A stretch of DNA of 64,000 nt from Bryobacterales bacterium (GTDB lineage: Bacteria; Acidobacteriota; Terriglobia; Bryobacterales; Bryobacteraceae): positions 62,001 through 126,000 of the forward strand of contig PLRS01000162.1 of assembly GCA_003164035.1 (NCBI GenBank), read 5' to 3'. The translations under genes were made by a program, and so were the position numbers. Positions 841 through 28,902 of this stretch are shown here, in pieces. The notes under the pieces are model-generated. The model was not told where the DNA came from and ran no database searches. It saw only the letters and a program-made list of their open reading frames with translations. The first letter of the stretch is position 1. Each line of letters starts with the position of its first letter.

Positions 841-1618
841 TGCGGCGATTCGTTTCGACGCGCTCGGGCATGCCTATCGCCCCGCCCATTGGCTATTCCG
901 AAATTACAGCGCTGTGGTAAAGCGGGGGAGCGTTTTCGCGCTGCTTAGCCCGAATGGATGTGGTAAGACCACGCTGCTGAGGATTCTGCTGGGAGCGCTC
1001 AAGCCGGCCGAGGGGTCCTTCTCCATCCACGGCAAGACGGCTTTCGTCCCTCAGCTTTTTCAAGTCAGCTTCGACTACACGGTCCTGGACATGGTGCTGA
1101 TGGGACGCGCCAAACACGTCGGTCTGTTTTCCCAGCCATCGACCAGGGACGAGGACGCTGCCCTGGCCGTACTCGACCGCTTCGGAATTTCGGACTTCGC
1201 GGCACGGCCATTCCACGAGTTATCCGGCGGCGAGCGGCAGTTGGTGATTCTTGCCCGTGCGGTGGTTTCCGACGCCGTTACCCTGATCCTTGACGAACCA
1301 ACTTCCGCACTGGATCTTAAGAATCAGATGCTGATTCTCGACTGGATCGGCCGGCTGTCTCACCAGGATGGATTGACCGTAGTCTTCACCACGCATCACC
1401 CGCACCACGCCTTGGCCGTGGCGGACAACGCGTTATTAATGCTTGGCGGCAGCGAGGTTACTTGCGGTCCGGTCGACGAAGTATTGAACGAGCCCAATCT
1501 CCATCGCTTGTATGGCGTGGACATCAAGCGTCTCTCCTTCGAATACAAGCGGCGGACGATCGAGACACTGGTGCCGGTGTATGCGAAGACCCATTCGCCG
1601 CGCGGGAGTGCGCCATAA
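833..1618 (+). CDS. ABC transporter ATP-binding protein, FecE/BtuD type
   Basis: This is the cytoplasmic ATPase partner of the FecCD permease, 261 residues, normal for the family. The ABC signature LSGGERQ is at about 130-136, Walker B LILDEPTSALD at about 151-161 and the switch histidine follows in TTHHPHH. The P-loop reads SPNGCGKTT at about 39-47: the first glycine of the usual GPNGCGKTT is serine, explicable by one G-to-A transition (AGC). It starts with GTG at 833, overlapping the end of the permease, so translation was coupled. Because the permease is broken, the serine may be early decay; it could also be tolerated. The substrate (iron chelate, haem or cobalamin) cannot be told from the sequence. 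Confidence 0.88.
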   Translation: MSDAAIRFDALGHAYRPAHWLFRNYSAVVKRGSVFALLSPNGCGKTTLLRILLGALKPAEGSFSIHGKTAFVPQLFQVSFDYTVLDMVLMGRAKHVGLFSQPSTRDEDAALAVLDRFGISDFAARPFHELSGGERQLVILARAVVSDAVTLILDEPTSALDLKNQMLILDWIGRLSHQDGLTVVFTTHHPHHALAVADNALLMLGGSEVTCGPVDEVLNEPNLHRLYGVDIKRLSFEYKRRTIETLVPVYAKTHSPRGSAP

Positions 1619-1661
1619 GCCAGGCGTTCCTAGTACCGTGGCGCGCGCGCTCCCCATACGA

Positions 1662-1700
1662 GCTGCGGGGCGGGCAATTCTGCCCACAGCCGGCCGGGCT
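1662..1700. repeat. REP-like palindromic intergenic repeat
   Basis: The core GCGGGCAATTCTGCCCACAG can fold on itself (GGGCA...TGCCC). A close relative occurs at 14179-14226, immediately after the frameshifted HTH/SEC-C gene. Both lie between genes. Short extragenic palindromes of this kind are usually dispersed through a genome, but only these two clear copies are visible here. Confidence 0.55.
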
Positions 1701-4617: not shown

Positions 4618-7600
4618 GTGCCCGGCGAAACCCGCCAGTTCCGCATCCTGTATCGCGATTTTCTGACGCGCCTGGTGGATCTGGAAGCGTTTTCTTCGCG
4701 CGGCGAGATCCAGAAACTGCTGGTCCAGTTCGTCAGCATGCAGGCCGCGTTCAGCTTCACCTTCGCGGTGGAGACGGTGAGCAAGTACGTGGCATCGCCG
4801 CTGCCGCGGGCGGCGCTTATGAAAGCCGCGCGCGTGGACCAAGAATTTCTGCTGGCCAGCACCATGGCGATCGCCGGGCTGTTTTCCATCCTGGCGTGGA
4901 ACGCCATGTTTCCGGACCGGCGCGATTGCCTGGTGCTCGGTTTGCTGCCAGTACGCGCCCGCACCATCTTCCTGGCCAAGGCGGGGGCGATGGCGAGCGC
5001 GCTGGGCATCAGTATCGTCGCCACTAACTGTTTCACCGGGCTGATGTTTCCGTTTCTGTTTGGCGGCTTGGGGTCGTTTGCGGCGTACTGGCTGAGGATG
5101 TTGGCGGCGGGCCTGTTTGTGGGGTGCGCGATGGTGGCGCTGCAGGGGCTGGCGGCGCAACTGTTGAGCTACCGGCTATTCTTGCGGGCTTCCAGCTTTC
5201 TGCAGCTCGGCGCGTTTTTCGTCACCCTGGGCGCTTATTTTCTGAAACCGCCGCTCGCCCGCGCAAGGGAATTTCCGTGGTTCCCGTCTTTCTGGTTTAT
5301 GGATTTCGGCCGGACCGCGCTCTACGCCCTGGCGGCGGCGATTTCGCTGGCCGCGGTCACCTTTGCGCTGGCCTACGGCGGAAACCTGCGCCGCATTGTG
5401 GAACAGCCGGACATCGCGCCGGCCGACCGGTCGCGCCCGGCGGCGCGAATCGGCGCATACCTGACGGCGAGGCTGCTGGCGAGGCCGATCGACCGCGCCA
5501 TCGTGCTGTTCACCGCCCGCACCATCGCGCGCAGCCGGCAGCACCGCCTCCTGCTGGCGGCCTACATGGGCATCGGCCTCGCCATCGCGCTGGCGTATTC
5601 GCGCGAGCTGATTTACGGCGGCGATCCACTCGAGAGCGAGTTCTGGAAAGTGCCGTGGAACCAACCCAACGTGCCGTTTCTGGTGGCCGGCCTGGTGCTG
5701 CTGTTCTTCGCCGCGATCGGCGCGCGCGCCGTCTTCGCGCTTCCCATTGCCCTGCGGGCCAACTGGATTTTCGAAATCACGGCGGTCGAAAGTCCGGCGG
5801 CTTATTTCGGAGCGGTGCGGAAGGCGCTGTACGCCGTCACCGCGGCGCCGGTGTGGATGGCTTCCGCGGCGATCTATTTTTCGATCTGGCCGGCGGTGGG
5901 GGCGGCCGAACATGTGGCGCTTCTAGGGGTGGTAGCAGTTCTGGTGGTGGAGACTTCGCTGCGCCGTTTCCGCAAGATCCCCTTCGCCTGCGCGTATCTG
6001 CCGGGTAAGTCGAATATCCATGTGCGGCTGGGCTGTTACGGCATCGGGTTTCTGTTTGCGGCCAGCCAGGGGGTGCATCTCGAATACTGGAGTATGCACG
6101 GCGCGATGCGATTCGTCGTGCTGCTGGGGGCGCTCGGCATTCTGGCGATCTGGGCGCGGAAGCGCACCACGCGAGCCGCGGCATCGCCCGGCAACCGCTT
6201 GCAGTTCGAGGATCTGCCGGAGGCGGAAATCGAAGCGCTGGATCTGCACGGCGGCGCCAGCAGGATTCCCGCTTATGTGGATTTCAGCGAGCCTCGCGAT
6301 GGAGTCGCGCTGGGGACGCATCTCGAACAAACGCTCCGCGACCTGCGCTACGGCGCGCGCATTCTTACGCGGTCGCCCGGATTCAGTGCCGCCGCGGTGG
6401 CGCTGATCGCCATCGGAGTGGGCGGCAATACCACGATCTATTCGATTATCCACGGCGTTCTGACCAAGCCCGCGCCGGGGGTTCACGCGAGCCGCCTGGT
6501 TTCGCTGGGGGTGGTCAACGACGGACGCGGCCGCGATCCCTATGGCGGTGCGGACAGCTACCTGAACTACCTGGATTACGCCGCCGAAACAAAGAGCATG
6601 CGGCACCTGGCCGCCGCCGCCCCCGACCGCTATACGGCGGGCATCCACGGAACCACCTGGGAGGTGCGCGGGCAACTCGTGAGCCCCAACTATTTTCGGA
6701 CGCTCGGGGTTTCGATCGTGAAAGGACGCGAGTTCACCGTCGAAGAAGCGTCCGGTTTGGGACCGTCGGCCGCCATTATCGCCTGGCATGTGTGGCAGAA
6801 CCAGTTCGAGGGCGCGGCTGACGTCATCGGACAGAGCATCACGCTAAATGGGCGGCCGGCCACAGTCGTTGGCGTCACCCAGCCGGATTTTCACGGCGCC
6901 GGCTTCGTGCCCTATTTCGAAGTGGGCGTGCCACTCTCACCCCATTCCGTGCGGCGGGGCATGGCGTTGAACGAGCGCGCCGAGCGCGGCGTGAGCATCA
7001 TCGGACAGCTCGCACCGGGGGCGTCGCTTTCTGGGGCGCAGGCCGAATTCGACACGTTCGCGCGGCGGATTGCGGGCGCCTATCCCGAAATCGCCAAGGG
7101 CCGGCGCATCGTGCTCCAGCCGTATTCCGCCACCGCGTTCGGCATTTATCAGAGCGGGCAGGCGCGCTTCTTCATGGCCATCCTCACCATGGTGGCGCTA
7201 CTGACCCTGCTGATCGTGTGTGCGAACGTGGCCACCCTGATGCTGGCACGGGCCGCCATGCGCCAGCGGGAAATGGCCGTGCGGCAATCGATCGGCGCCT
7301 CGCGCGCGCGCATTCTCCGCATTCAATTGGCGGAAGGCCTGGCGCTGTCGCTGGCGGCATGGGCGGCGGCTTGCCTGTTTGCGCAATGGGCCTGCGGCGC
7401 GATCGTCAAGTTCGTTCCACCGCTCGAATCCGGTGCGCGCCTGGCGCCGGACCTCACGCCGGATTGGCGCGTCACGCTGTACGCGCTACTGCTGGCGGTA
7501 TGCGCCACGGTGGCGTTTACGGTGGCGCCGGCGGTGCGCGGCTGGCGTCAGGAATTGCTGCCTTTTCTAAAAGCCGGAGAGCACTGCGTCATCCAGGGCC

Positions 7601-8769
7601 GTTCCCGGTTGGCGAACGTGCTGGTGGTGGCGCAGCTCGCGCTTTGCGTCTTGTTGCTGACCAGCGCCGGCCTGGCCTGGCGCTCGGCGCGGCTGATGGA
7701 CGCTACCGGACTTTCCTTCGACAAGAACCGCCTGTTGCTGGCGAGCGTGGATACCAGCGGGGCTGCCGCTACCGGAGAGCAGAATCTCGCTGTGCTGGAG
7801 CGCCTGCGCCAGCGCCTTCTGGCCGTGCCTGGCCTGGTCTCGGTTTCTTATGCGCAGAACGCGCCGCCGCGAGCCTGGACGGGGCTGCCGGTGATGGCCG
7901 CCGGTTCGCATGAGCCGCTTTCGACGGACGGCAACTTCGTGGGGCCGGATTATCTGCGGACGTTGGGCGTACCCATAGTGGCGGGCCGCGGGCTGGGCGG
8001 AGACGAAGCGCCGGGCGCGGTCGTCAATCAGAAGCTGGCCCAGGCGCTGTGGCGCGGCCAATCCGCGGTGGGGCGCACGCTGCGGATTGGGCGCGCCGAG
8101 GTCGCGGTGGTCGGCGTGGTCCCCAATGGCGCCTTTTCGGCGATTGGCCCGGGCGGCGCCATCAGCCTGCGGCAGGAGGATCGGGGCAACTTCGTATTTC
8201 TACCGCTGCGCCATAGCCCTGCCGCGCCGGGACGGTACGTGCTTCACTTACGCTATGCCGGTAACCTGGGCACGGTGGCCCCGTCGATTCGCGCCGCCTT
8301 GCGGGGAGCCGAGCCGCGCGCCGCCGTGTTTGGCCTGGAGACGATGGACGACGCGTGGGACGAGTTTCTGGGGCCGGTGCATTTCATCGCGGACTTGCTC
8401 GGATTGTTCGGCGCCGGTTCGCTGCTGGTCGCCGCCATCGGGCTTTACGCCGTGGCGGCGTTCTATACGGCGCGCCGAACGCGCGAGTTCGGCATCCGGA
8501 TGGCGCTGGGCTCCTCGCCGCGGCAGACAGTGGAAGAGGTATTGAAGGATGGCCTGCTGCTGACGAGTATCGGAGTCGGCGTCGGTCTCGTTCTCAGCGC
8601 CGCCGCGGGCAGAGTGTTCGGCAGTTTCCTGTTCGGCGTGACCCCCACGGATACGGCGGCGTACCTGGCAGTCACTGGCCTGCTGGCGGTGGTGTCGCTA
8701 GCGGCATGTTACCTGCCGGCGCGGCGGGCGTCCAAGGCGGACCCGATGCTCGCGTTGCGGGCGGATTAG
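4618..8769 (+). CDS. Fusion of an ABC-2-type membrane protein with an Acidobacterial duplicated orphan permease (FtsX/MacB)
   Basis: One uninterrupted frame of 1383 residues has two parts. Residues 1 to about 560 form a polytopic membrane module with many hydrophobic helices and no MacB features; this is the expected partner of the ATPase just upstream. From about residue 575 (DLRYGARILTRSPGFSAAAV) the protein is a complete orphan permease of the Acidobacterial ADOP type: a first FtsX helix, a periplasmic MacB_PCD domain, three FtsX helices around QREMAVRQSIGASRARI, then a second degenerate PCD and a last FtsX block with TREFGIRMALGSSPRQT and the ending LPARRASKADPMLALRAD. ADOPs are normally separate genes of about 800-880 residues. 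No stop or frameshift marks the junction. The start is GTG at 4618, coupled to the ATPase. Roles of ADOPs are not established; export or envelope stress functions are guesses. Confidence 0.85.
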   Translation: MPGETRQFRILYRDFLTRLVDLEAFSSRGEIQKLLVQFVSMQAAFSFTFAVETVSKYVASPLPRAALMKAARVDQEFLLASTMAIAGLFSILAWNAMFPDRRDCLVLGLLPVRARTIFLAKAGAMASALGISIVATNCFTGLMFPFLFGGLGSFAAYWLRMLAAGLFVGCAMVALQGLAAQLLSYRLFLRASSFLQLGAFFVTLGAYFLKPPLARAREFPWFPSFWFMDFGRTALYALAAAISLAAVTFALAYGGNLRRIVEQPDIAPADRSRPAARIGAYLTARLLARPIDRAIVLFTARTIARSRQHRLLLAAYMGIGLAIALAYSRELIYGGDPLESEFWKVPWNQPNVPFLVAGLVLLFFAAIGARAVFALPIALRANWIFEITAVESPAAYFGAVRKALYAVTAAPVWMASAAIYFSIWPAVGAAEHVALLGVVAVLVVETSLRRFRKIPFACAYLPGKSNIHVRLGCYGIGFLFAASQGVHLEYWSMHGAMRFVVLLGALGILAIWARKRTTRAAASPGNRLQFEDLPEAEIEALDLHGGASRIPAYVDFSEPRDGVALGTHLEQTLRDLRYGARILTRSPGFSAAAVALIAIGVGGNTTIYSIIHGVLTKPAPGVHASRLVSLGVVNDGRGRDPYGGADSYLNYLDYAAETKSMRHLAAAAPDRYTAGIHGTTWEVRGQLVSPNYFRTLGVSIVKGREFTVEEASGLGPSAAIIAWHVWQNQFEGAADVIGQSITLNGRPATVVGVTQPDFHGAGFVPYFEVGVPLSPHSVRRGMALNERAERGVSIIGQLAPGASLSGAQAEFDTFARRIAGAYPEIAKGRRIVLQPYSATAFGIYQSGQARFFMAILTMVALLTLLIVCANVATLMLARAAMRQREMAVRQSIGASRARILRIQLAEGLALSLAAWAAACLFAQWACGAIVKFVPPLESGARLAPDLTPDWRVTLYALLLAVCATVAFTVAPAVRGWRQELLPFLKAGEHCVIQGRSRLANVLVVAQLALCVLLLTSAGLAWRSARLMDATGLSFDKNRLLLASVDTSGAAATGEQNLAVLERLRQRLLAVPGLVSVSYAQNAPPRAWTGLPVMAAGSHEPLSTDGNFVGPDYLRTLGVPIVAGRGLGGDEAPGAVVNQKLAQALWRGQSAVGRTLRIGRAEVAVVGVVPNGAFSAIGPGGAISLRQEDRGNFVFLPLRHSPAAPGRYVLHLRYAGNLGTVAPSIRAALRGAEPRAAVFGLETMDDAWDEFLGPVHFIADLLGLFGAGSLLVAAIGLYAVAAFYTARRTREFGIRMALGSSPRQTVEEVLKDGLLLTSIGVGVGLVLSAAAGRVFGSFLFGVTPTDTAAYLAVTGLLAVVSLAACYLPARRASKADPMLALRAD

Positions 8770-8799
8770 GGACAGGTGGAAGAGCCGCGTTGCGCAGTC

Positions 8800-9429
8800 C
8801 TATCGCGCTGGAAACCAAGCCCGGAGTATCTCTACCAAGCGGCCAAAGGTCTCGCTGGCGCTCCATTTCGCCAAGTTGGCGGAGGAACCCAGCATCCTAA
8901 AATCCTCTGGCAGGGGCTTTCGTCGCCTATTATAATAAAGGACACCCTCGAAAAGCTCCTTCGGTTTCTCGCGACAACAGGGCTCTCGTGAAAGGTCTAG
9001 TTCGGCTGCAACGCGGGCTGTCAGCGTGTCGAGATCAGCCGCGCTTACCCCGAGATGTCGGGCAACGCTTGCCGGACAGTGCCACAGCCACTCCTCCAGC
9101 TCCGGCACAATTACAACGGCCGCCGAACGGTCGGTCCACGTCACCCCATCCAGCCGTTGCTGAATCCGAGTTACCGCCTGCTCTGGCACCACGCGTTCCC
9201 AACCGCTGCCATCGTGGTCCCAAATCAGGATCAGGCGCGAGTACTCTGTTTTCTTTACCTTGGCGCGCGCAATCTCCGGCCCCTCTTTCACCATCCCCGA
9301 GTCGCGGCTGAAGAGCCTGTCGACGTCGAAGGAAATTGGATGGATCTGGAGATCGCGATGGCGCTGCAGCACCGCTCGAATGAGGGCTTGCGCATCGGAG
9401 TCGGCCGTCCAGACGAAAAGGTCCTTCAT
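8800..9429 (-). CDS. Small partner of the AAA ATPase, TOPRIM-like acidic motifs, function unknown
   Basis: This 209-residue protein is translationally coupled to the AAA ATPase by an ATGA overlap (9426-9429), so the pair forms one unit. It begins MKDLFVWTADSD. Visible conserved-looking motifs are RLILIWDHDGSGWE (an aspartate pair in a hydrophobic strand context, as in TOPRIM-like or DUF4276-like nucleases) and VVIVPELEEWLW. I do not recognise a named family with confidence. ATPase plus TOPRIM-like partner is the layout of several phage defence systems (for example OLD/Gabija-like and PARIS), so a nuclease or effector role is plausible but inferred. A longer upstream start inside the ATPase gene is possible but is not supported by residue quality. 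Confidence 0.7.
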   Translation of the reverse strand: MKDLFVWTADSDAQALIRAVLQRHRDLQIHPISFDVDRLFSRDSGMVKEGPEIARAKVKKTEYSRLILIWDHDGSGWERVVPEQAVTRIQQRLDGVTWTDRSAAVVIVPELEEWLWHCPASVARHLGVSAADLDTLTARVAAELDLSREPCCREKPKELFEGVLYYNRRRKPLPEDFRMLGSSANLAKWSASETFGRLVEILRAWFPAR

Positions 9430-19341: not shown

Positions 19342-19436
19342 GCAGTCTGTCGGGAAATCGGCATGCCATTCCAGCCCGATCGCTCCAGGCGCGGCGGCCG
19401 TTCGAAACGCCCCGCATCGGTTACGATCAGTACGAC

Positions 19437-21050
19437 ATGGCCATCCGATCTGTTTCCGTCCTCGCGCTGTTCATTCCCGCCGCGCTGCCGCTTGCCGGAC
19501 AGGAGCCCGCCGGCTTTCCTCCGTCGCGGCCTTACCGGGCCCAACTGGAGGAACGCGGGCCCGTGCGTGACATCGGCCTTCACGATGCCATCGCAATCGC
19601 CCTGGCGCACAATCTCGAAATCGAGATCGAGAACGATGCCAGCGAGCTGTCTCAGGCCGGCACCCTCGGTGCTCTCTCCTACTACGATCCGGTGGCCGGA
19701 TTCAGCGGTTCGGCGATGTCGAGCGATCTGCCGGTAACCAACATTCTCCAGACGGGTGCGCTCGGCAGCCAGATCACCAAATCCTGGTCGGTGGCGCCGA
19801 ATATTCAGCAAAATCTCCCCGGCGGCGGAACCGCGACGCTCACGACGAATCTCACCCGAAGCTCCACCAACAGCGATTATGCCCTCCTCAACCCGATGTA
19901 CGGCGCCACCATGGGACTCACCGTCACCCAGCCCCTCTGGCGTGGATTTCGGCGCACCGCTGCCGAGCGGCAGATCGTCGTCGCGCAGCTCAACGAGCGG
20001 TTGACCGAGAGCCAGTTCCGGCAGAAAGTCGCCAGCGTCGTCGAGCAGGTCATCGACGCCTACTGGAGACTGGCGGTCACGGTCGAATACTACGAGGCGC
20101 AGCGGCAGGCGCGGGACGTGGCCGTATTCCAGTACGAGCAGACCCAAAAGCGGCTGCAGCAGGGACAGGAAACGCCCTTGGCATTGGGCACGCAGCGCTC
20201 CGATGTCGCATCGCACGACCAGACCCTGACGGAAGCGGCCGTGCAGATCGTTCAGTCCTCCAACGCTCTGAAACGGCTGCTCGCGCGCAGCGTGATGGAT
20301 CCGCTCTGGAATGTGGGGCTCATCGCTTCCGATCGTCCCGGCTCTCCGGCTCCACGCATCGGGCTGGAAGCAGCCGTCAAAACGGCCCTTCAACGCCGCC
20401 CTGAACTCGAGCAGCTACGCTTGCAGCTCAAGCAGGCGGATGCCGACATCCGCTTCGACCGGCGGGAAACCAAGCCCGCCGTCAATCTCCGCCTGGAAGC
20501 CCTGTCGACCGGCAACGCCGGCGCGGTGTACGCGGCATCGGCGGTCCAGGTGGTGGGTCCGGTGCTCGATCCGTCCAACCCCGCGTTCGGCGGCGCCGGC
20601 AAGTCTTACAGTCAGGCCGCCAGGTTCCAGCACCCGAGCCTCGCCGCGGGGTTGGAGATCAAGCTTCCGCTGCGCAACCGTGCCGCCATCTCGCAGCTCA
20701 CCACCGCCGTCGTCGGCGCGCGGAAGCTACAGTCTCAGTTCGAAGCCGCTCAGGAGGACATTCTGGTCGAGGTACGCAACGCCTGGGAATCCATCGCGGC
20801 GCAAGAGAAGAATGTCGAGGCGGTGGGTCTCTCCCGCCGGCTGGCCGAGGAGCGGCTCGCCGCCGACACCGCCAAGGGCGGAAGCGATCCCCAGAGCCTC
20901 GAGACTCTGGGCGATCGTCGGGATCTGGCGGATGCGCGTGTCCGTGAACTGCAGGCGCTCATCGACTATCGGCTTTCCCACGTCTCTCTCGAGAAAGCCA
21001 TGAATACCCTGGTCGACGAACAGGAGATTGTGCTGGCCCGCCGAAAATAG
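19437..21050 (+). CDS. TolC-family outer membrane efflux protein
   Basis: The protein (537 residues) has a signal peptide (ALFIPAALPLAGQ) and two outer membrane efflux protein repeats: the first begins around IGLHDAIAIALAHNLEIEIE, the second around LEAAVKTALQRRPELEQLRL. Long heptad-like helices and QPLWRGFRRTAAERQIVVAQ between them fit the TolC trimeric channel through the outer membrane. No inner-membrane pump or adaptor gene is next to it, so the partner is elsewhere. Start is ATG 19437; the upstream open frame covers the previous gene and is not coding. Confidence 0.88.
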   Translation: MAIRSVSVLALFIPAALPLAGQEPAGFPPSRPYRAQLEERGPVRDIGLHDAIAIALAHNLEIEIENDASELSQAGTLGALSYYDPVAGFSGSAMSSDLPVTNILQTGALGSQITKSWSVAPNIQQNLPGGGTATLTTNLTRSSTNSDYALLNPMYGATMGLTVTQPLWRGFRRTAAERQIVVAQLNERLTESQFRQKVASVVEQVIDAYWRLAVTVEYYEAQRQARDVAVFQYEQTQKRLQQGQETPLALGTQRSDVASHDQTLTEAAVQIVQSSNALKRLLARSVMDPLWNVGLIASDRPGSPAPRIGLEAAVKTALQRRPELEQLRLQLKQADADIRFDRRETKPAVNLRLEALSTGNAGAVYAASAVQVVGPVLDPSNPAFGGAGKSYSQAARFQHPSLAAGLEIKLPLRNRAAISQLTTAVVGARKLQSQFEAAQEDILVEVRNAWESIAAQEKNVEAVGLSRRLAEERLAADTAKGGSDPQSLETLGDRRDLADARVRELQALIDYRLSHVSLEKAMNTLVDEQEIVLARRK

Positions 21051-21108: not shown

Positions 21109-22749
21109 ATGCAACAATCCAAGCAACGGTACTCACCGGCGGCCCAGGACGCGGCCCATGCCGGACTTCCCGAGTCCTTCGATCTGAACGCGGCTCTGCG
21201 GATACTGCAAGAAGTCGATCCGTCTTCGGCGCTATACCGGCGCACCCGTGAACTGCTGGATGAATCTGTTGAGGTCCAGCCTGAGATTCCCAAAGCCACC
21301 GCGCGCGGAGAGAGCAAGTTTCTGACGATCGGAATGGCGACCCGCGACGATTACGATGGCTGCTATTTTACGATCCAGGCCATCCGGCTCTACCATCCCG
21401 AGATATTAGATGACGTCGAGTTCCTGGTAATTGACAATAACCCGGCCGGTCCTTGTGCCAAAGCCCTAAAAGCCCATGAGTACTGGGACCGCAGCTACCG
21501 CTATGTTCCGTATCGTTCGCACCAGGGCACCGCGGTGCGCGATCTGATCTTTCGGGAGGCTGCGGGCGACTTCGTCCTTTGCATCGACAGTCACGTGTTC
21601 TTTCCCGCCGGTGCGCTCGCGAGACTCATCGCATACTGCCGCAGTCATCCCCAGAGCAACGACCTGCTGCAAGGCCCTCTCCTCGGCGACGATTTCAAGC
21701 CGATGGGAATGTGCTTCCAACCGGTATGGTCTTACGCCATGTACGGCGTCTGGGGACTGGACGAGCGCGGAAACGATATCGACTCGCCGCCGTTCGAGAT
21801 CGAGATGCAAGGCCTCGGCGCGTTCGCCTGCCGTCGTGAGGCATGGCCGGGCTTCAATCCGCGCCTCAGCGGATTCGGCGGCGAGGAGGGTTACATTCAC
21901 GAGAAAATCCGGCGCGCGGGAGGGCGCAATCTCTGCCTGCCGTTCCTCGGCTGGATACACCGCTTCGAACGTCCCATGGGCGCCGGTTATAGCAGCGGCT
22001 ACGGAGACCGGGTTCGGAACTACCTGCTGATTTACGATGAACTGGGGCTCGATCCGGCGCCCGTGATCCGTCACTTTGAAGAGTTCATCGGCCAGGCGGA
22101 GACCGGGCCTCTGGTTCAATCGGCTCGGGCCGAGCTGGCCAGTCCCCTGCACTTTTTCGACGCCCTCTATTGCATGAACCTGGACCGTCAACCGGAACGT
22201 TGGGAGGCCATCGAGCGGCGTTTCCGGAGGCTGGGAATCGAGCGCGGCGTTCGCCGTTTCTCCGCCGCCGATACGCCGTTGAACCACGATATCGGCCGTG
22301 CGCTCTCGCATCGCAGGATCGTCGCCGAAGCCAAGCTGCAGCAATTGCAAACCGTGCTGGTGATCGAGGATGACGTCCGCTTTTCACCCGATGCCGCCGG
22401 CGTTTTCGCCCGCAGTCTACAGGAGATCGAGGGGCGCGACTGGCAGCTTTTGTACCTCGGCGGCTATCGCTCCGCCAATTCGCCCGGAAACAAGCCGGGA
22501 TGCCGCCCGCTTTCGATTTCGCCCCTGGTTCCGGGCACCCATGCCATCGCCTACCATCGCTCCGTCTACGATGCCATTCTCGATGCCCTGCCGGACAACG
22601 CGGTCGACATGGCCTTATGGCTTCTAACCCACTCGGGGCTCGACGATTTTTATGCCAAGAGCTTGCAGGCCTCGGCCTATCTCACCTTTCCTGCGATTGC
22701 CACCAGCGGGCGCATCCTGCTCGAACAACAGGGCGCGTTCGACGAGTGA
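21109..22749 (+). CDS. Double glycosyltransferase: GT2-like plus GT25-like domains, copy 1
   Basis: This 546-residue protein contains two transferases. Residues about 70-300 are a GT-A fold of the family 2 type (FLTIGMATRDDYDGCYFTIQ; acidic LCIDSHVFF near 158; GGEEGYIHEKIRRAGG in the acceptor region). Residues about 345-546 are a GT25 (LPS or collagen-type galactosyltransferase) domain: MNLDRQPERWEAIERRFRRL, SHRRIVAEAKLQQLQTVLVI and the EDD at 420-422. The gene is followed 53 bases later by a paralogue with the same layout and very similar sequence. No membrane helices, so it works in the cytosol on nucleotide sugars. The acceptor is unknown; the Thr-rich secreted protein just downstream is a candidate. 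Confidence 0.85.
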   Translation: MQQSKQRYSPAAQDAAHAGLPESFDLNAALRILQEVDPSSALYRRTRELLDESVEVQPEIPKATARGESKFLTIGMATRDDYDGCYFTIQAIRLYHPEILDDVEFLVIDNNPAGPCAKALKAHEYWDRSYRYVPYRSHQGTAVRDLIFREAAGDFVLCIDSHVFFPAGALARLIAYCRSHPQSNDLLQGPLLGDDFKPMGMCFQPVWSYAMYGVWGLDERGNDIDSPPFEIEMQGLGAFACRREAWPGFNPRLSGFGGEEGYIHEKIRRAGGRNLCLPFLGWIHRFERPMGAGYSSGYGDRVRNYLLIYDELGLDPAPVIRHFEEFIGQAETGPLVQSARAELASPLHFFDALYCMNLDRQPERWEAIERRFRRLGIERGVRRFSAADTPLNHDIGRALSHRRIVAEAKLQQLQTVLVIEDDVRFSPDAAGVFARSLQEIEGRDWQLLYLGGYRSANSPGNKPGCRPLSISPLVPGTHAIAYHRSVYDAILDALPDNAVDMALWLLTHSGLDDFYAKSLQASAYLTFPAIATSGRILLEQQGAFDE

Positions 22750-22802
22750 GTATCCCGCGCCGGATTGACTTTACCGCTTTGAACCGGGAACAATACTCAG
22801 CT

Positions 22803-24413
22803 ATGCCCCAGGACGCCACCACGGACCGACCGCCCGATCCTCTCGACATGAATAAGGCTCTCGATATCCTGCAAGAGGTCGATCCATCCTCGGCGCTGTA
22901 CCGTTGCACCCGTCAGTTCCTGGATGATTCTCTCGAGGTCCGGCCTTCCATTCCCCAGGCTACCGCCCGCGGGGAGCGCAAATTCTTGACCATCGGAATG
23001 GCAACCCACAACGATTACGACGGCTGCTATTTCACCATCCAGGCCATCCGGCTCTACCACACCGAGATTTTGCGCGACGTCGAGTTTCTGGTGGTCGATA
23101 ACAACCCGGCCGGACCTTGCGCCAAAGCCTTGAAAGCCTTCGAGCACTGGGCCCCGAATTACCGCTATCTTCCGTGCCGTTCGCGTCAAGGTACCGCAGT
23201 CCGCGATCTGATCTTTCGGGAAGCCGCCGGCGACTTCGTGCTTTGCGTGGACAGTCACGTGCTTTTTCCCCCCGGCGCCCTGGCCAGGTTGATGGAGTAC
23301 TGCCGGCGCCATCCCGACAGCAACGATCTGCTGCAAGGCCCTCTCCTCTGGGACGACATGAAGCTGTCCACTCACCTGGAACCGAGATGGTGGCCAGGTG
23401 AGTTATTCTACGGTTACTGGGCCATGGACGACCGGGGAGCGGATATCGAATCGCCCCCGTTCGAAATCGCCATGCATGGGCTCGGCGTATTCGCGTGCCG
23501 CCGCGAGGCTTGGCCTGGTTTCAATCCGCGGCTCAATGGATTCGGCGGTGAAGAGGGGTACATTCATGAGAAAATCCGGCGCGCGGGAGGGCGGACTCTT
23601 TGCCTGCCTTTCCTTCGTTGGAGGCACCGTTTCGACCGTCCCATGGGTGTTCCCTATACCTGTACCTATGAAGACCGTGTCCGGAACTACCTGCTCATTT
23701 ATGATGAGTTAGGCTCCGATCCAACCCCTGCCATCGGTCACTTTGAAGAGTGCATCGGTAAAGAAGCGGCACAGGTCATGGTTCAGTCGGTTCGGGCCGA
23801 GTTGGCTGGTCCCTTTCACTTCTTCGACGGCATTTATTGCATCAACCTCGACCGTCAGCCGGATCGATGGGAAGCTATGGGGCGGCGATTCCGAAGGCTG
23901 GGAATCGAGCGCAAGGTTCGCCGTTTCCCCGCCGTCGAAACGCCTTGGAACCACCACATCGGTTGCGCGCTCTCGCATCGCAGAATTGTCGCCGAAGCCA
24001 AACTGCAGCAACTGGAGACGGTCCTGGTGTTCGAGGATGACGCCCGGTTCTCCCCCGATGCCGCCGAAGTCCTCGCCTGCAGTCTCCGGGAACTGGAAGG
24101 CCGCGAGTGGCAACTCTTGTACCTGGGTGGATACCGGTCCGCGACCTTCCGGACTGTACCGGAGTGCCGGCACCTCGTCATTCCCGACTCGATCACCTGC
24201 ACCCACGCCATCGCCTACCATCACACCGTTTACGATGCCATTCTGAACGCCGTGCCCGCCAACGCCACCGATGTCGCCTTGTGGGCTCGCACGCACCTGG
24301 CCATCGATCAGTTCTACACTTACAGCCTGCGGGCTTCGTCCTACCTTACGTGGCCGGTAATATCGACACAAAGTAGCATCCTAGGTTCGGAGGAACGAGT
24401 GTTTGACGACTGA
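22803..24413 (+). CDS. Double glycosyltransferase: GT2-like plus GT25-like domains, copy 2
   Basis: The protein (536 residues) is a tandem duplicate of the gene just before it, with the same domain order and long identical stretches (IREAAGDFVLC, GGEEGYIHEKIRRAGG). The GT25 part keeps INLDRQPDRWEAMGRRFRRL and VFEDDARFS. The main differences are around GPLLWDDMKLSTHLEPRWWP, where the acceptor side of the GT2 domain has diverged, so the two copies may use different acceptors or positions. ATG 22803 aligns with the start of copy 1. Confidence 0.85.
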   Translation: MPQDATTDRPPDPLDMNKALDILQEVDPSSALYRCTRQFLDDSLEVRPSIPQATARGERKFLTIGMATHNDYDGCYFTIQAIRLYHTEILRDVEFLVVDNNPAGPCAKALKAFEHWAPNYRYLPCRSRQGTAVRDLIFREAAGDFVLCVDSHVLFPPGALARLMEYCRRHPDSNDLLQGPLLWDDMKLSTHLEPRWWPGELFYGYWAMDDRGADIESPPFEIAMHGLGVFACRREAWPGFNPRLNGFGGEEGYIHEKIRRAGGRTLCLPFLRWRHRFDRPMGVPYTCTYEDRVRNYLLIYDELGSDPTPAIGHFEECIGKEAAQVMVQSVRAELAGPFHFFDGIYCINLDRQPDRWEAMGRRFRRLGIERKVRRFPAVETPWNHHIGCALSHRRIVAEAKLQQLETVLVFEDDARFSPDAAEVLACSLRELEGREWQLLYLGGYRSATFRTVPECRHLVIPDSITCTHAIAYHHTVYDAILNAVPANATDVALWARTHLAIDQFYTYSLRASSYLTWPVISTQSSILGSEERVFDD

Positions 24414-24474
24414 GCGCTCTTGATATCTGGTACCGGGACTTATAGTTCTTCTAGTACCGTCACGAATTCCGGCA

Positions 24475-24750
24475 TCAGCTTACGATTCCCGCTTCCCGAA
24501 GAGTGTCGAGGCATCCGGTGACTTCGCTAAGCGGGACGCTGGCGAGCCCGTAAGCTTCCCGCACCAGCGCGGCGATCTCGGCCGCGGAGTGACTCCCGTC
24601 GCAGAGTTCCAGCACTAACGCCGCGGTCGGGTTCATGTAATGGATACGATTGGTACCGGCTCCGTAGACGACGATCTGGTCGGCAACCGTGTGCATCTCG
24701 AGCCCCTCGGTTTTTCGTGGATGATCGCCCATTCCGATCTCGTTTTCCAT
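24475..24750 (-). CDS. PqqD-family protein (possible RiPP recognition element)
   Basis: The protein (91 residues) shows the PqqD winged-helix fold: VADQIVVYGAGTNRIHYMNP, LVLELCDGSHSAAEIAALVR, LSEVTGCLDTLREAGIVS. PqqD-like domains bind leader peptides of ribosomally made peptides, but stand-alone members also occur in polysaccharide and peptidyl-modification loci. It is divergent from the Thr-rich secreted protein gene at 24924 and convergent with the double glycosyltransferases. No radical SAM enzyme or peptidase is in the neighbourhood. Start ATG 24750; ATG 24732 is an alternative. Confidence 0.75.
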   Translation of the reverse strand: MENEIGMGDHPRKTEGLEMHTVADQIVVYGAGTNRIHYMNPTAALVLELCDGSHSAAEIAALVREAYGLASVPLSEVTGCLDTLREAGIVS

Positions 24751-24923
24751 AGCAGGTATGATACTATGCCGCGAAGCGCGGATTCCATGGGGCCGCTGAA
24801 ACAATTTCGATCATTTACGGTTTTTCCCATTGACGATCGGGAACCAAAAAAGATATAGTTCGTAGAACTGCAAACGCTCGGCCGTTCCGAGTGTGTCTGC
24901 AACTTAAGAGAGGGAAATGGACG

Positions 24924-25532
24924 ATGGCTGAATCTGTGGACGATTTCCTGGACAAGTTACCGCCGGACAGGCGCAGTTTTGTGCGGCGCATTCTCGGGAT
25001 GGCGGGCTTCGCGGCCCCAGCCGCCCGTTCCTTCGTGATGGCGTCCGCCGCCATGGTTACGGCCAAGTCGGTGCTCGCGGCGCCCGGCACGACTGGCGGA
25101 TCTAGCACGACTTCCACGCCCACGACACCCGCTACCTCGCCCGCTACCACGCCCGGCACCACGCCCGCTACCACCAGGCCTACGACCACAACAACGACAC
25201 CGACCACCACCAGGCCTACGACCACAACGACGACGCCCACCACCACCACCAGGCCTACGACCACAACCACGACGCCTACCACCACTACCAGGCCTACGAC
25301 CACAACGACGACGCCTACCACCACTACTAGGCCTACGACCACAACGACGACGCCTACCACCACCACCAGGCCTACGACGACAACAACGACGCCGAGAACG
25401 ACCACGACACTAAGAACCACTACACTTAGGACCACCACGCCAAGAACCACCCCGCCCAGAACGACACCGTGCCGCCCGCACGATGAGTCGCTCCTTCCGC
25501 GGCAGCCGGCGCTTGGCCGCAAGAAGAGGTGA
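24924..25532 (+). CDS. Secreted Thr/Pro-repeat (mucin-like) protein with Tat-like leader
   Basis: The first 52 residues look like a leader: a charged segment MAESVDDFLDKLPPDRRSF, the twin arginines in RRSFVRRILG and a weakly hydrophobic stretch ending KSVLAAP. Everything after about residue 60 is almost only Thr, Pro and Arg, built from a 13-residue unit RPTTTTTTPTTTT repeated about five times, then degenerate PRTTT/LRTTT units and a short basic tail. Such Thr/Pro tracts are typical O-glycosylation targets. No catalytic domain is present. Start ATG 24924 with GAGAGGGA upstream. It faces the PqqD-like gene across about 170 bases and follows two double glycosyltransferases, so modification of this protein by them is a reasonable but untested idea. 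Confidence 0.75.
   Translation: MAESVDDFLDKLPPDRRSFVRRILGMAGFAAPAARSFVMASAAMVTAKSVLAAPGTTGGSSTTSTPTTPATSPATTPGTTPATTRPTTTTTTPTTTRPTTTTTTPTTTTRPTTTTTTPTTTTRPTTTTTTPTTTTRPTTTTTTPTTTTRPTTTTTTPRTTTTLRTTTLRTTTPRTTPPRTTPCRPHDESLLPRQPALGRKKR
25176..25406 (+). repeat. 39-bp in-frame minisatellite coding RPTTTTTTPTTTT
   Basis: Units begin at the AGGCCTACGAC motif at 25176, 25212, 25251, 25290, 25329 and 25368; the first spacing is 36 bases and the rest are 39, all multiples of three. Units differ only at a few silent positions. Such arrays change copy number by slippage without breaking the frame. Confidence 0.92.
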
Positions 25533-25816
25533 GCCCCGCGATCATGCCCAACTCAAGCCCCGGTGGTAAAGCTCACACTCCATCGCATAGGTGGCTGAAC
25601 CCTGGGGTTGTCTCAACGTTTCTGACTGCGGCCGTCGCCGCGCTGCTCGCTCGCGAAACCGCCGCGTTCATGGAACCCCAGTTGAAGGATGTCCCGGACT
25701 ACTGGCGCGGGCATGGCGTCAGAATCATTATCCGGAAGCGCGGAAAGGACTTGCGGGCGTTGACGAGCCGCCGGGACGTCAATGGCTCGATGACGCCAGC
25801 ACTTCACGAACCTTAG
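25529..25816 (+). CDS. Hypothetical small protein with one hydrophobic helix
   Basis: The frame begins at a GTG at 25529 that overlaps the stop of the Thr-repeat gene (GTGA); an ATG at 25544 is another choice. The 95-residue product has a short hydrophobic stretch, VVSTFLTAAVAALLARETAA, and a basic end. Its last 38 bases overlap the end of the convergent sensor gene. The coupling supports a real gene in the same transcript, but no family is recognised and the sequence could be non-coding. Confidence 0.35.
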   Translation: MSPAIMPNSSPGGKAHTPSHRWLNPGVVSTFLTAAVAALLARETAAFMEPQLKDVPDYWRGHGVRIIIRKRGKDLRALTSRRDVNGSMTPALHEP

Positions 25817-27380
25817 CGGCCAGCTCGTCCGGCGTGTACGGCTTCGCAATATAAGGCACGTCGGGATCCAGCGCGCCCCGGTGCGCGATCACATTGTAAG
25901 TGTAGCCGGAAGTGTACAGCACTCTGACATCCGGGCGCAGTTTGTTGAAGTCGTGGGCCACGCCGCCCGCCAGCCTTCCAATGCTCTCCAGCTTCTGTGC
26001 CTGGCGGTACCGCTCCTGCGACTCTCGCAATGCTTCTTCAGCCAATTTCCGCTCGGTGATATCGCGGTTGCTGCCTTGCACTCCAATCTGGCGGCCGGCG
26101 TCGTCCAGAATCGGCCCCCAACTGGCAGCCACCCATTTCACCCGCCCGTCTTTCGCGATCAGTCTGAATTCCTCGTCCTGTATGGAACTTCCCTGGAATA
26201 AGGCTTGCCTGTGGCCGGTCATGCGGGACTGATCGTCCGGGTGGCACCAATCGAACAGGCTTGTCTTTTCGAGATCGGCCACCGTGTAACCAGTCAACGT
26301 CTCGACCGAGGCGTTCACATAGATCAGCTTGCGGTTCATGTCATAAGCCAGCACCGTTTCTTTCAGGTTGTTTGCCATGAACCGTAGCTTCTGTTCCGCC
26401 TCCCGCAGGAATCGCTCGGCTTTCTTGGTGCGGTTCTTTTCGCGGGTAATGCGCGCCGCCTCCCAACAGGCCACCACAAAAAGCAAGGCAAACAGCCCGG
26501 CCGCCGCTGCCAGGCGGTTCTCCCGCCGCCTTGCCGTCAGAGTCGCTTCCATGGATTCCAGGTGCTGTCCCGCCAGGTAACCCCATCGCCCAATGATCGG
26601 AGCCAGTTTGCCTTCCGCCGCCATGGAGCCGATCTCTTCCCGGATGGCATCGGCAACGGCGCGGTTTTCGAACGTCGCACCCACGCCCAGTCGCGACCGC
26701 ACCTCCGGAACGGCAATCCAGCGAAGCGGACGACCCGCGCACGCGCCTCCTTCCAACAGGGCTGAAATCGCCGTATAAGAGTCCATGAAGGCGGCATCCG
26801 TGCGCTTCTGGCATACGTCTTCCATGACGCTTTGCAGTAAGGGCCGCGCCAGTGGCCGTGCGGCGGGCAAACGGCGCCGCAGTTGCCAAACGTCGATGGA
26901 GGGGTTGGCGAGCCCGATCGCGGCCGTCGAGAAATCCTGAACTGTCCTGTACGAACTGTCGGTGCGGACCAGCAGGCTATACTCCGACTCCAGGTATGGC
27001 TCGGAGATGTAAAAGGTCTTCCGGCGTTCGGGGGTAATGGTGATCAGCGGCCATAAATCCACAGCCTTTTTCCGCAGCGCGGACTCCGAGCTATCGTGCC
27101 AGAAGACCCACTGCAGATCGATCCCCCGGCGCCGCGCAGCCTCGCGTACCAAGTCGACGGAAAGACCGCCCGGCTTGCCATCGTCGCCGCGTAGCTGAAA
27201 TGGCGGAGATATCATCCAGCCGATTCTGTAGACCCGGTTGCCCCAAAAAGGTTGTCGCAACCGCAGCCACCCCAGAGTAGCCGCGCAGAGGATCGCGGCA
27301 AGGGCGGCACCATATTCGACCTTCTGAAAACGCGTCGGTTTCACCACGTTGCTCTCAAGATTAACAACCGGCAATCTCAT
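25779..27380 (-). pseudogene. Hybrid sensor kinase with SBP_bac_3 and PAS domains, kinase core deleted
   Basis: The 533-residue frame has a membrane helix at about 20-40, a periplasmic SBP_bac_3-like domain (IGWMISPPFQLRGDDGKPGG to about 265), a second helix near 290-312 (LFALLFVVACWEAARITRE), and a PAS/PAC domain (LIYVNASVETLTGYTVADLE ... GSNRDITERKLAEE). Then comes the HisKA H-box, LESIGRLAGGVAHDFN with H476. The next residue jumps straight into the last half of a receiver domain (KLRPDVRVLYTSGYT ... YIAKPYTPDELAAKVREVL). The rest of HisKA, the whole ATPase domain and the receiver's phospho-aspartate are absent. The join lies at about 25940-25946 and is in frame. It cannot autophosphorylate. 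It may be decaying, or work as a ligand sensor that pairs with another kinase. Start ATG 27380; the longer upstream frame is noise. Confidence 0.82.
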
Positions 27381-27474
27381 TTGGAAGAGCGAGGTCCGGA
27401 TACGAGATGTGGGGAACCCGGCATTCGGCGCAGTGCCATTTCGTTCATCGGCACTGCTCCGTAAGAGCGCCCCT

Positions 27475-28902
27475 TCACGCCAGCTTCCGTCCCACCAGCG
27501 CGTAATCGAGCGCCCCGAAAAACTGCTCGCGAAAATCCTCGGGCAGCGAGGCCAACGCGGGCATGGATTCCACCGCGGGCGCCAGGCGCAGCAACTCGAT
27601 GCGGCCAATGCCGGCCTCTTCCAGGTAGAAGCGCAGTAGCGGGTGCGGGACAGGGCGGGTGTGGGTGGGATCGAGATAGAAGTGCGTGGCGAAGATGGCC
27701 AGGCATTCCGGGTTCGGCGTTTCGATGGCGATCAGGCCATTCGGTTCCAGCCGCGACGCCGCCAGGCGAATCATTTCCGGCAGCCACGCCGGCTCCAGAT
27801 GCTCCACCACCTGGCTGCAGAAAAGGCCGTCGAGCGTAGCCTCGGGAACCGACGAGAGGTACTGGAACAGGTCGGCGGTTTCCGCGTCCAGTCCTTTAGC
27901 GCGGCAGACCGCGACCGATTCCGGGCTCAGATCGATGCCGCGCGCGGGGACGCCGGCCTCGCGCATGTGCTCCAGAAATTCGCCGCGCCCGCAGCCGATG
28001 TCGAGCACCGCGCGGCGGCCGGCGAAATAGGGCAGGTACACTTTCTGGCCGGTCTTGACGTATTCCTCCGATCCGCGGAAGCGCTCGGCGAAGCGGGCGT
28101 AATCGAGGCCCATCGGCTCGGCGGCAGCAGCGAGGGGCAACGGCATGGGAGCCGGAGCTGCTGCCGGCGGCCCAACGGCGGCGCGCTGGCGAATCAGGCG
28201 CAGTTCGTCGTGGATGAGGTGCTCGAAATCCGCGCGCACGCGATCGAAATCGCCGCGCATGCGCTCCAGGTCGCTCCACAGGCGATGTTGAATCTCCGCC
28301 GAGTTGCGTTCCAGCGCGGCGGCAAAATCGCTGTGCTGCAGGCGCAGGCTCTCGCGGAAATTGGCGTCCATCCGGTCGGAATGGTGCTGCGCCGCCGCCT
28401 GAAATTCCGCCACCGAGCGCAGAAAGCGGATCTCCGTCTGCGACAGTTTTTGTTCCCAGCCGGCGCGCCATTCGCTCCAATGGCGGCGCAGGTCTTCGGT
28501 CTGGCGCTCCACCTCATCGACCGCCGCCAGCCTGGCGTTCACTTCCCCAAGCCGCCGGCCGAATTCGATCAGCGCGCGGTTCACATCGTTGATGGCCTCG
28601 ATGGAGGCGTCCACCGCGCCCACGGCGTGCCGGTTGAACTCCACCTGCTCCCGCACGTGCCAGTCGAGCACGCGCGCCACCAGCTTCTTCCACCCCTGCA
28701 CCAGTGCGTTCAGCGGGCCGCCGCGGCGTGGGTTCACGGTGCCGATGGCGGCCACTTTCCCCAGGGCGGCGTCGCGCGCATGCACCAGCGGCATCAAATC
28801 CGCCAGCGGCACCTCCACCCCGCCGGCCCCGGTCTCCGGGTGGCGCGCGCGCACCCGGTCGCGCACGGCACGCAAGATGGAGATCAGCTCAGCGCTTTCC
28901 AC
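27475..28902 (-). CDS. SAM-dependent methyltransferase with long N-terminal coiled coil
   Basis: The protein (475 residues) has a helical N-terminal region of about 260 residues rich in charged heptads (VDEVERQTEDLRRHWSEWR, LERMRGDFDRVRADFEHLI), then a class I methyltransferase domain from about 290: VLDIGCGRGEFLEHM is the SAM-binding motif I, followed by GIDLSPESVAVCR and FCSQVVEHLEPAW. This layout occurs in polysaccharide-chain-terminating or cell-surface methyltransferases, where the coiled coil sets length or docks a partner. Its start overlaps the end of queF by 14 bases, so it is the last gene of a minus-strand operon. Acceptor unknown. Confidence 0.8.
   Translation of the reverse strand: MESAELISILRAVRDRVRARHPETGAGGVEVPLADLMPLVHARDAALGKVAAIGTVNPRRGGPLNALVQGWKKLVARVLDWHVREQVEFNRHAVGAVDASIEAINDVNRALIEFGRRLGEVNARLAAVDEVERQTEDLRRHWSEWRAGWEQKLSQTEIRFLRSVAEFQAAAQHHSDRMDANFRESLRLQHSDFAAALERNSAEIQHRLWSDLERMRGDFDRVRADFEHLIHDELRLIRQRAAVGPPAAAPAPMPLPLAAAAEPMGLDYARFAERFRGSEEYVKTGQKVYLPYFAGRRAVLDIGCGRGEFLEHMREAGVPARGIDLSPESVAVCRAKGLDAETADLFQYLSSVPEATLDGLFCSQVVEHLEPAWLPEMIRLAASRLEPNGLIAIETPNPECLAIFATHFYLDPTHTRPVPHPLLRFYLEEAGIGRIELLRLAPAVESMPALASLPEDFREQFFGALDYALVGRKLA

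Follow-up and report, generated by a model that had tools for sequence, protein, structure and literature searches.

A PqqD-like protein, a Thr/Pro-tract protein and paired GT2-GT25 glycosyltransferases as a candidate system for coating exported proteins with sugar

Gene content of the locus

The window, a stretch of 64,000 nucleotides from the 8.0 Mb genome of a Bryobacterales bacterium, carries within 4.4 kb (21109-25532) two GT2-GT25 double glycosyltransferase (GT) genes, a PqqD-like gene and the gene of a Thr/Pro protein led by an RR motif. The original prediction had pointed to the co-location of these genes, to the domains of their products and to the repeat, and all of these parts are found at the positions listed below, with PF00535, PF01755 and PF05402 all exceeding their Pfam cut-offs. 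A TolC-family gene precedes the GT pair by 58 bp on the same strand.

21109..22749, plus strand: GT2-GT25 double glycosyltransferase, first copy, 546 aa; PF00535 and PF01755 over the Pfam cut-offs
22803..24413, plus strand: GT2-GT25 double glycosyltransferase, second copy; its product has 536 aa when counted from the 22803 ATG
24475..24750, minus strand: PqqD-like protein of the RRE fold family; 91 aa if translation begins at the likely ATG; PF05402
24751..24923, no strand: region between the divergent pqqD-like and Thr-protein genes, 173 bp, read from the sequence
24924..25532, plus strand: Thr/Pro-tract protein with an RR-led export signal, 202 aa
24924..25079, plus strand: leader of the Thr/Pro protein, residues 1-52, with D-RR-SFVR (RR at 24969-24974) and the candidate cleavage site VLA-A, read from the sequence
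25008..25019, plus strand: F-A-A-P of the leader, corresponding to the aromatic-x-x-P motif of the family
25089..25472, plus strand: Thr/Pro tract (core)
25170..25393, plus strand: 39-bp minisatellite coding RPTTTTTTPTTTT, 5.8 copies

The first GT copy scores 26.1 bits on the Glycos_transf_2 family PF00535 (cut-off 23.3) and 25.2 bits on the Glyco_transf_25 family PF01755 (cut-off 24), and the second copy 37.9 and 42.6 bits, respectively. The two tandem enzymes are 71% identical, and a third GT2-GT25 gene in the same genome is 54% identical over the matched part. The frame of the PqqD-like gene is open on the minus strand from 24475 to 24804, where it begins with TTG, and the ATG at 24750 is the likely start. 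Its product carries a PqqD/RRE domain (PF05402, E 1.1e-10, 42.2 bits against a Pfam cut-off of 23.4) and reaches 28.9 bits on the NCBIfam model PqqD_rel_X (TIGR04353), below the cut-off of 35. As the sole query of a contig scan, this protein gave 378 pattern matches and no confirmed relatives.

The Thr/Pro protein starts at the ATG at 24924, behind the purine-rich AGAGAGGGAA, and its residues 56-201 comprise 83 Thr, 24 Pro and 14 Arg. It matches no Pfam family, and none of the Thr-tract bodies scanned, from the window and its relatives, exceeds the cut-off of any NCBIfam or Pfam family. Across six aligned units of the minisatellite the variable sites are distributed over codon positions 1, 2 and 3 as 0/2/8, and the array uses all four Thr codons. 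Hence, in this small sample, the array looks to be under constraint as a Thr/Pro protein, and the codon-position pattern speaks against a repeat expanding purely as DNA. In relatives, Thr proteins are often present as tandem copies, with three in L060 and L082 and two in L041 and L076. Repeats of other kinds were also seen: GGK repeats occur with a PqqD-methyltransferase-like protein in L023, and in L024 RPP repeats are accompanied by a kinase-like gene and a PqqD fusion.

Recurrence of the gene set and its fusions

A GT profile derived from six relatives was run against one genome per species (84,980 genomes), yielding 113 loci that encode a relative of the GT. The best 80 of these 113 were read, and every count out of 80 given here refers to them. 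Going by their record titles, the hosts belong to Acidobacteriota, Alpha-, Beta- and Gammaproteobacteria, desulfobacterial groups, Actinomycetota, Bacteroidota and one Fraserbacteria genome. Co-occurrence of the parts in other genomes had been set beforehand as the check on the predicted association, and it held up: of the best 80 of 113 loci, 50 have a PqqD-like ORF and 33 an RR-led Thr-tract ORF no more than 3 kb from the GT, and neither was found in 19 control regions from the window's order. At any distance, PqqD-like ORFs were detected in 51 loci with the refined profile and in 47 with the seed-only profile (46 within 3 kb; controls 0/19), and RR-led Thr-tract ORFs in 34; both partners lie no more than 5 kb away in 31 of the 80. 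The refined profile was built partly from matches within the test loci. The PqqD seeds number seven, one of which (L029) is the same record as L072. The control regions total 287 kb, some of them short, and all come from genomes of the window's order that lack the GT.

Among the 42 Tat-Thr ORFs in the test loci (best 80 of 113), 27 are less than 1 kb from the GT, 12 are at 1-3 kb and three lie beyond, one of the latter (L062 2-319) having been judged false on inspection by eye. The strict Tat-Thr filter, with a threshold of 1.3, misses the window protein itself, whose hydrophobic stretch scores 1.23, and strict filters overall miss true cases in the window, L037, L038, L053, L058, L061, L072, L075, L082, L092 and L115. 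A looser WxxP scan gave matches in 40 of the 80 loci, some of them chance frames, and in 2 of 19 controls, where both looked like chance on inspection; a scan for Thr tracts with no leader test, restricted to non-overlapping ORFs, gave 29 of 80 loci (27 within 3 kb) and none of 19 controls. The 80 loci are not independent, since five appear to repeat genomes (L036/G183, L040/G156, L069/G211, L072/G246 and L073/G247), L060 and L114 share a contig, and the pairs L050/L052 and L099/L109 have identical PqqD sequences. Few genomes of the window's order (6 of 257) have the GT, and the five besides the window's own all belong to the same family as the window; in G246 and its sister G247 a PqqD-like ORF adjoins the GT. 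The putative modifying enzymes and their putative precursor share the same 4.4 kb in the window, and their proximity recurs family-wide. Because the combination recurs beside homologous GTs in other phyla and is absent from the control regions, it appears to go beyond chance.

Gene fusions provide a further link. In the window's own genome, the ORF directly 5' of the third GT2-GT25 gene encodes 294 residues in which a PqqD-like domain is combined with a hydrophobic segment led by RR, an extended Thr tract and a C-terminal part. A second PqqD-RR-Thr fusion resides elsewhere in the genome, with no GT in the stretch read. The PqqD parts of both score 17.9 and 19.9 bits in Pfam, below the cut-off of 23.4; the first reaches E 1.5e-38 on our custom PqqD profile, which was seeded with both own-genome fusions. 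PqqD-like and Thr genes, associated in the window by proximity, are therefore a single gene twice in the same genome. Among the best 80 of 113 loci, 33 have PqqD as a separate gene, 15 as a fusion to the GT (11 with the seed-only profile) and six as a fusion to an RR-led Thr protein, two of these (L037 and L072) having been assigned manually; no PqqD was found in 29, and one locus may count in two classes. Fusion at the sequence level thus ties PqqD both to the Thr protein and to the GT. The AlphaFold2 model of one natural PqqD-RR-Thr fusion (L042) has a pLDDT of 50, too poor to judge docking. A weak own-genome match to the leader (L011, E 0.0058) was dropped, as it has no matching ORF of at least 100 aa.

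In 18 of the best 80 of 113 loci there is no PqqD, Tat-Thr or WxxP ORF, and seven more (L039, L087, L088, L091, L093, L094 and L102) rest on WxxP matches resembling chance frames, so that some 25 of the 80, many of them from Alphaproteobacteria, have neither partner. Contig ends do not explain these cases, since in 14 of the 25 the GT is flanked on either side by 3 kb of sequence or more. An alphaproteobacterial Tat-Thr query, which could miss distant relatives, matched at E no higher than 0.05 in 6 of 15 genomes, strongly in three (L082, L103 and L076) and weakly in three (0.03-0.04); the nine genomes with no match include Labrys, Devosia, Yoonia and Amylibacter, and eight of them are the genomes of partnerless loci. 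Four such loci (L089, L091, L094 and L108) encode instead a protein whose tail is rich in Thr/Ser and which carries no RR leader, and in L078 a frame of this kind continues across an unread base into the GT. The GT family can hence do without PqqD and the Tat-type leader, and its common denominator may be a GT together with a Thr-rich tail, for which PqqD and a leader of this type would be one way of delivery.

Leader motif and enzyme architecture

The window leader was read by the general Tat-motif and signal-peptidase rules. It fits RRxF[LV][KR] (D-RR-SFVR), followed by a weakly hydrophobic stretch (hydrophobicity 1.23), as in twin-arginine signals. The earlier description of the protein as Tat-led stands as regards the DRRSFVRR motif seen by eye, on which it rests, since the NCBIfam Tat-signal model TIGR01409 gives no match for the window Thr protein; the relative L076 scores 19.9 on that model against a cut-off of 16.7.

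Within these export signals there is a second motif. [WFY]xxP[VILA] is present in 33 of 38 unfused leaders, a count of ORFs (several per locus in places) from the best 80 of 113 loci that includes the window and leaves out L062 2-319; shuffling the same residues gives a mean of 2.0. The motif is absent from all eight PqqD-fused leaders (Fisher p 5e-6 against the unfused ones, with leaders that are not independent), as would suit a fused PqqD needing no motif to be read in trans. Its Pro is mostly located about 25 residues after the RR, and its typical form is W-x-[KR]-P-V; the window has FAAP at residues 29-32, aromatic-x-x-P with no Trp. Five leaders received no call (L055, L065, L066, L068 and L074), two of them because the script picked the wrong RR, the motifs WKKPV of L055 and FIAPV of L065 being visible; L068 has WSKPF, and the leaders of L066 and L074 have no aromatic residue. 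Seven more WxxP leaders (L053, L075, three in L082 and two in L115) were left uncounted, because the expression that retrieved them partly demands the motif. Shuffled leaders are the sole control for the motif, a single ordinary Tat signal having been found for comparison. According to PMC12710340, W/Y/LxxP/L/I is the recognition sequence of a broad RRE group including PqqD, FusE, McjB and StsC, with YxxP in the case of lasso peptides. The resemblance of the leader motif to the published one lends sequence support, short of proof, to the notion that the PqqD-like protein recognises aromatic-x-x-P in the leader.

The AlphaFold2 model of the second GT (residues 50-536, pLDDT 93.1, pTM 0.89) has COLGALT1 as its first-ranked Foldseek match across both halves (E 7.5e-21), followed mainly by polypeptide GalNAc-transferases. 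The global rmsd to COLGALT1 is about 20 over both halves, implying that the two domains are arranged differently. The modelled GT2 half shares the catalytic fold of polypeptide GalNAc-transferases (Z 19.0-21.8, rmsd 2.7-3.2 over 240-256 residues), the best structural row besides these and COLGALT1 having a Z of 17.5, and this resemblance suits the mucin-like label of the original prediction. In sequence, GALNT10 is the sole phmmer match of the GT2 half among PDB sequences (E 2.2e-4), with D-S-H aligned on D-S-H, and COLGALT1 is the top match of the GT25 half (E 6.4e-8). All 82 GTs compared, both window copies among them, have the Asp and His of DxH as well as a C-terminal His. Our locus search used two peptide patterns, one of them with EEGY, so the conservation of EE is built in, and that of DxH and the C-terminal His is not. 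The EDD columns of the GT25 half are gapped in 37 of the 82, partly through contig ends, and altered in others.

GT60 is a family of peptide HexNAc-transferases. Replacement of DxD by DxH is noted for GT27 and GT60 (PMC7185993), and a C-terminal ricin-type lectin domain is given as a feature of GT27 polypeptide GalNAc-transferases (PMC4202792). Neither window GT has a Pfam match to a lectin domain, and membership of the GT2 half in GT27 was rejected on this ground; its activity is a prediction. Further modules are fused to the GT in relatives: a sulfotransferase in L043, a weak fucosyltransferase N-terminal match below its cut-off in L064, a weaker methyltransferase-like match in L081, and GT4-type and other GT domains in L070.

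Proposed route, alternatives and known systems

The genes, their domains, the conserved neighbourhood, the fusions, the leader motif and the metal-site residues form the in silico basis of our interpretation, and they support the original prediction of the PqqD-like protein, the Thr protein and the GTs as a candidate system. In our main reading, to which we assign a probability of about 0.7, the PqqD-like element would bring the Thr-tract protein to cytoplasmic GTs for O-glycosylation before export. From this basis we infer binding, glycosylation, choice of sugars, export route and order of events as follows. The Thr protein would be synthesised with an RR-led signal that also bears the aromatic-x-x-P recognition motif. 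The cytoplasmic PqqD-like protein would bind this motif and present the disordered tract to the GT2-GT25 enzymes, whose GT2 half, resembling polypeptide HexNAc-transferases, would use a nucleotide sugar to place a first sugar on numerous Thr residues, and whose GT25 half, resembling collagen galactosyltransferase, would extend it. The bulky glycosylated protein would then leave by the twin-arginine route, which accepts pre-modified cargo, and signal peptidase would cut off the leader. The recurrence of the same gene set in unrelated bacteria makes it probable that this is a means of sugar-coating exported proteins that has yet to be described. The product may serve as a surface coat, a hydration layer, an adhesin or a secreted glycopeptide.

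Three other explanations were considered. If the GTs built a surface polysaccharide or lipid glycan, the Thr protein and the PqqD-like gene would be chance neighbours. Pfam indeed titles GT25 as an LPS biosynthesis family, the TolC-family gene lies just ahead of the GT pair, two relatives from the window's family carry the GT near eCIS genes, and the loci with neither partner amount to about 25 of the best 80 of 113. Against this stand the conserved neighbourhood, the two kinds of fusion, the 0/19 controls for either partner and the PqqD-Thr fusion adjoining the third GT of the same genome, and we therefore reject chance association as very improbable. A role of the PqqD-like protein mainly as a proofreading chaperone, masking the signal peptide until modification is done and recruiting no GT, is partly compatible with recruitment. 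It draws on the position of aromatic-x-x-P, which lies inside the export signal, so that PqqD binding there would cover that signal; yet the fusion of PqqD to the GT in 15 of the best 80 of 113 loci suits recruitment, and we consider masking as the main role unlikely.

Phospho-glycosylation of the pseudomycoidin kind finds room in the kinase-like and NTP_transf_5 neighbours of several loci. According to this explanation an HprK-like kinase would phosphorylate Ser/Thr and a nucleotidyltransferase-like enzyme or GT would add sugar to the phosphate, with the GT2 enzyme taking part in this chemistry and not acting on Thr directly, as in the PsmK/PsmN kinase and nucleotidyltransferase chemistry reported for the lasso peptide pseudomycoidin (PMC9266682). 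An HprK-related kinase A-like domain (TIGR04352, E 5.6e-24, 84.7 bits and thus below the cut-off of 200) is fused to GT2 in L103, the GTs of L081 and L086 have Hpr_kinase_C matches below cut-off, a cluster represented by NTP_transf_5 (PF14907) is present in 32 of 82 clustered loci at a median distance of 359 bp, and the window's own genome has, in a row, a kinase-like gene (by eye, with no Pfam match at 0.01), NTP_transf_5, the PqqD-Thr fusion and a GT. However, the nine window proteins scanned against Pfam, that is, the GT pair and its neighbours, include neither an HprK-like kinase nor NTP_transf_5, a separate HprK-like cluster occurs in just 8 of the 82 loci, and the DxH/C-terminal His metal site and the GalNAc-transferase-like fold would suit transfer to the Ser/Thr hydroxyl equally well or better. 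We judge such chemistry unlikely.

A broader version of the recruitment reading, tentative and held at somewhat less than even odds, would see in several phyla a cytoplasmic mucin-type O-glycosylation in which a GalNAc-transferase-like GT2 starts HexNAc-Thr, the GT25 half and other fused modules, such as those of L043, L064 and L081, extend it, and a PqqD-like contact at the aromatic-x-x-P of the Tat signal both recruits the substrate and delays export. This would be one branch of a wider class of PqqD with RR-led low-complexity proteins and different modifiers, for which the repeat proteins of L023 and L024 are cited as examples. If recruitment before export is true, RRE-glycosyltransferase fusions, so far unexplained, would gain a substrate and a route, and RiPP-like logic would apply to entire exported proteins whose export signal doubles as the leader. 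It would also provide a bacterial, cytoplasmic counterpart to mucin-type glycosylation, with a bearing on the origin of GalNAc-transferases, and mucin-like glycopolymers could be made in ordinary laboratory hosts.

The original prediction knew of no described system with this set, a statement that has to be qualified. RRE-glycosyltransferase fusions are already in print, classed by RRE-Finder as absent from known classes (PMC7470986), and a 2025 paper again noted fusions of RREs to PF00535 (PMC12710340); the portions of these two sources at hand name no substrate. The part that stands is that no description of this substrate or system was found in titles and abstract openings among the matches listed, a body of literature with most subscription journals outside it.

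Several known systems share parts of the proposed one. General bacterial O-glycosylation of the PglL/PglO type is periplasmic, en bloc and lipid-linked, and the likeness to it would be O-glycans on Ser/Thr of exported proteins, as proposed here. HPr-rel-A (TIGR04352/TIGR04353) is approached by the window PqqD with its sub-cut-off score on TIGR04353, and pseudomycoidin-type kinase/nucleotidyltransferase tailoring by the own-genome paralogue, with its NTP_transf_5 and, by eye, kinase-like neighbours; unlike in either, no such neighbour was identified at the window GT pair. COLGALT1 has two tandem GT domains with a GT25 second half and is the best Foldseek match over both halves, but its domains are arranged differently, and the solved enzymes are named for collagen hydroxylysine, whereas here the acceptor is likely Thr. 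Animal mucin-type O-glycosylation by GT27 enzymes has in common the DxH, the C-terminal His, the fold (Z up to 21.8) and, as predicted here, a Thr/Pro-tract acceptor; the window GTs differ in having no Pfam lectin domain, in an identity of 13-20%, in an expected cytoplasmic location and in being paired with GT25. In RRE-dependent RiPP biosynthesis (PqqD, lasso-peptide B1/FusE, StsC) there is likewise a stand-alone or enzyme-fused PqqD-like domain and a short precursor with leader and core, and aromatic-x-x-P resembles the published W/Y/LxxP/L/I (PMC12710340); in contrast, an RR-led export signal here takes the place of the leader and a Thr/Pro tract that of the core, and glycosyltransferases are the enzymes. 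By analogy, then, the candidate system would work in the manner of RRE-dependent RiPPs and resemble mucin-type glycosylation in its enzyme and acceptor.

Genes flanking the set in the window

Two further genes border the glycosyltransferase, PqqD-like and Thr/Pro-tract genes:

19431-21050, same strand as the first GT2-GT25 gene: TolC-family outer membrane protein
25779-27608, minus strand: SBP_bac_3-PAS sensor protein

The TolC-family gene ends 58 bp upstream of the first GT2-GT25 double glycosyltransferase gene, and may be either a part of the same operon or a chance neighbour. In the sensor protein, inspection by eye places a histidine-box-like segment (GGVAHDFN) directly against the apparent end of a receiver domain, and the kinase catalytic part seems, again by eye, to be missing.

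GT2-GT25 genes in other settings

Genes of a contractile injection system (eCIS_core) lie near the GT2-GT25 gene at two loci, L026 (G183:C526) and L027 (G156:C203), whose hosts are two family-level relatives of the window genome. At four alphaproteobacterial loci without PqqD (L089, L091, L094 and L108), a gene close to GT2-GT25 encodes a protein with a Thr/Ser-rich C-terminal tail, which has no twin-arginine-type (RR) leader and looks barrel-like by eye.

PqqD-like elements and RR leaders at further loci

The loci are:

L003 (G000:C158, the window's own genome), 1459-2292: PqqD-RR-Thr-tract fusion
L038, 2-904: frame with an NTP_transf_5-like part (by eye)
L024 (G012:C1), 7563-8024 and 8024-8896, minus strand: PqqD fusion and kinase-like gene
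L006/L022 (G143:C303), 7-297 and 317-589, minus strand: PqqD-like gene and RR-led protein
L023 (G023:C261), 3-1343 and 1397-1690, minus strand: PqqD-headed protein and RR-led protein

The L003 fusion stands behind a histidine-kinase-like gene, and the 3.2 kb read there contain no GT. In L038 the NTP_transf_5-like part is followed in frame by an RR-WTKP leader plus a Thr/Glu/Pro tract, which may be a fusion or an assembly effect. At L024, PqqD, the RR-led LWPVVTSL segment and a tail of (RPP)n repeats form a single protein, encoded immediately after the kinase-like gene (so judged by eye). The small RR-led protein of L006/L022 contains Pro/Cys and adjoins the PqqD-like gene, with glycosyltransferase-like genes (by eye) downstream of the pair. 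At L023, an N-terminal PqqD domain heads a protein resembling, by eye, a TPR-methyltransferase, and this adjoins an RR-led protein with a (GGK)n body; the locus possibly follows the same logic as the window system, with another modifier and another core in place.
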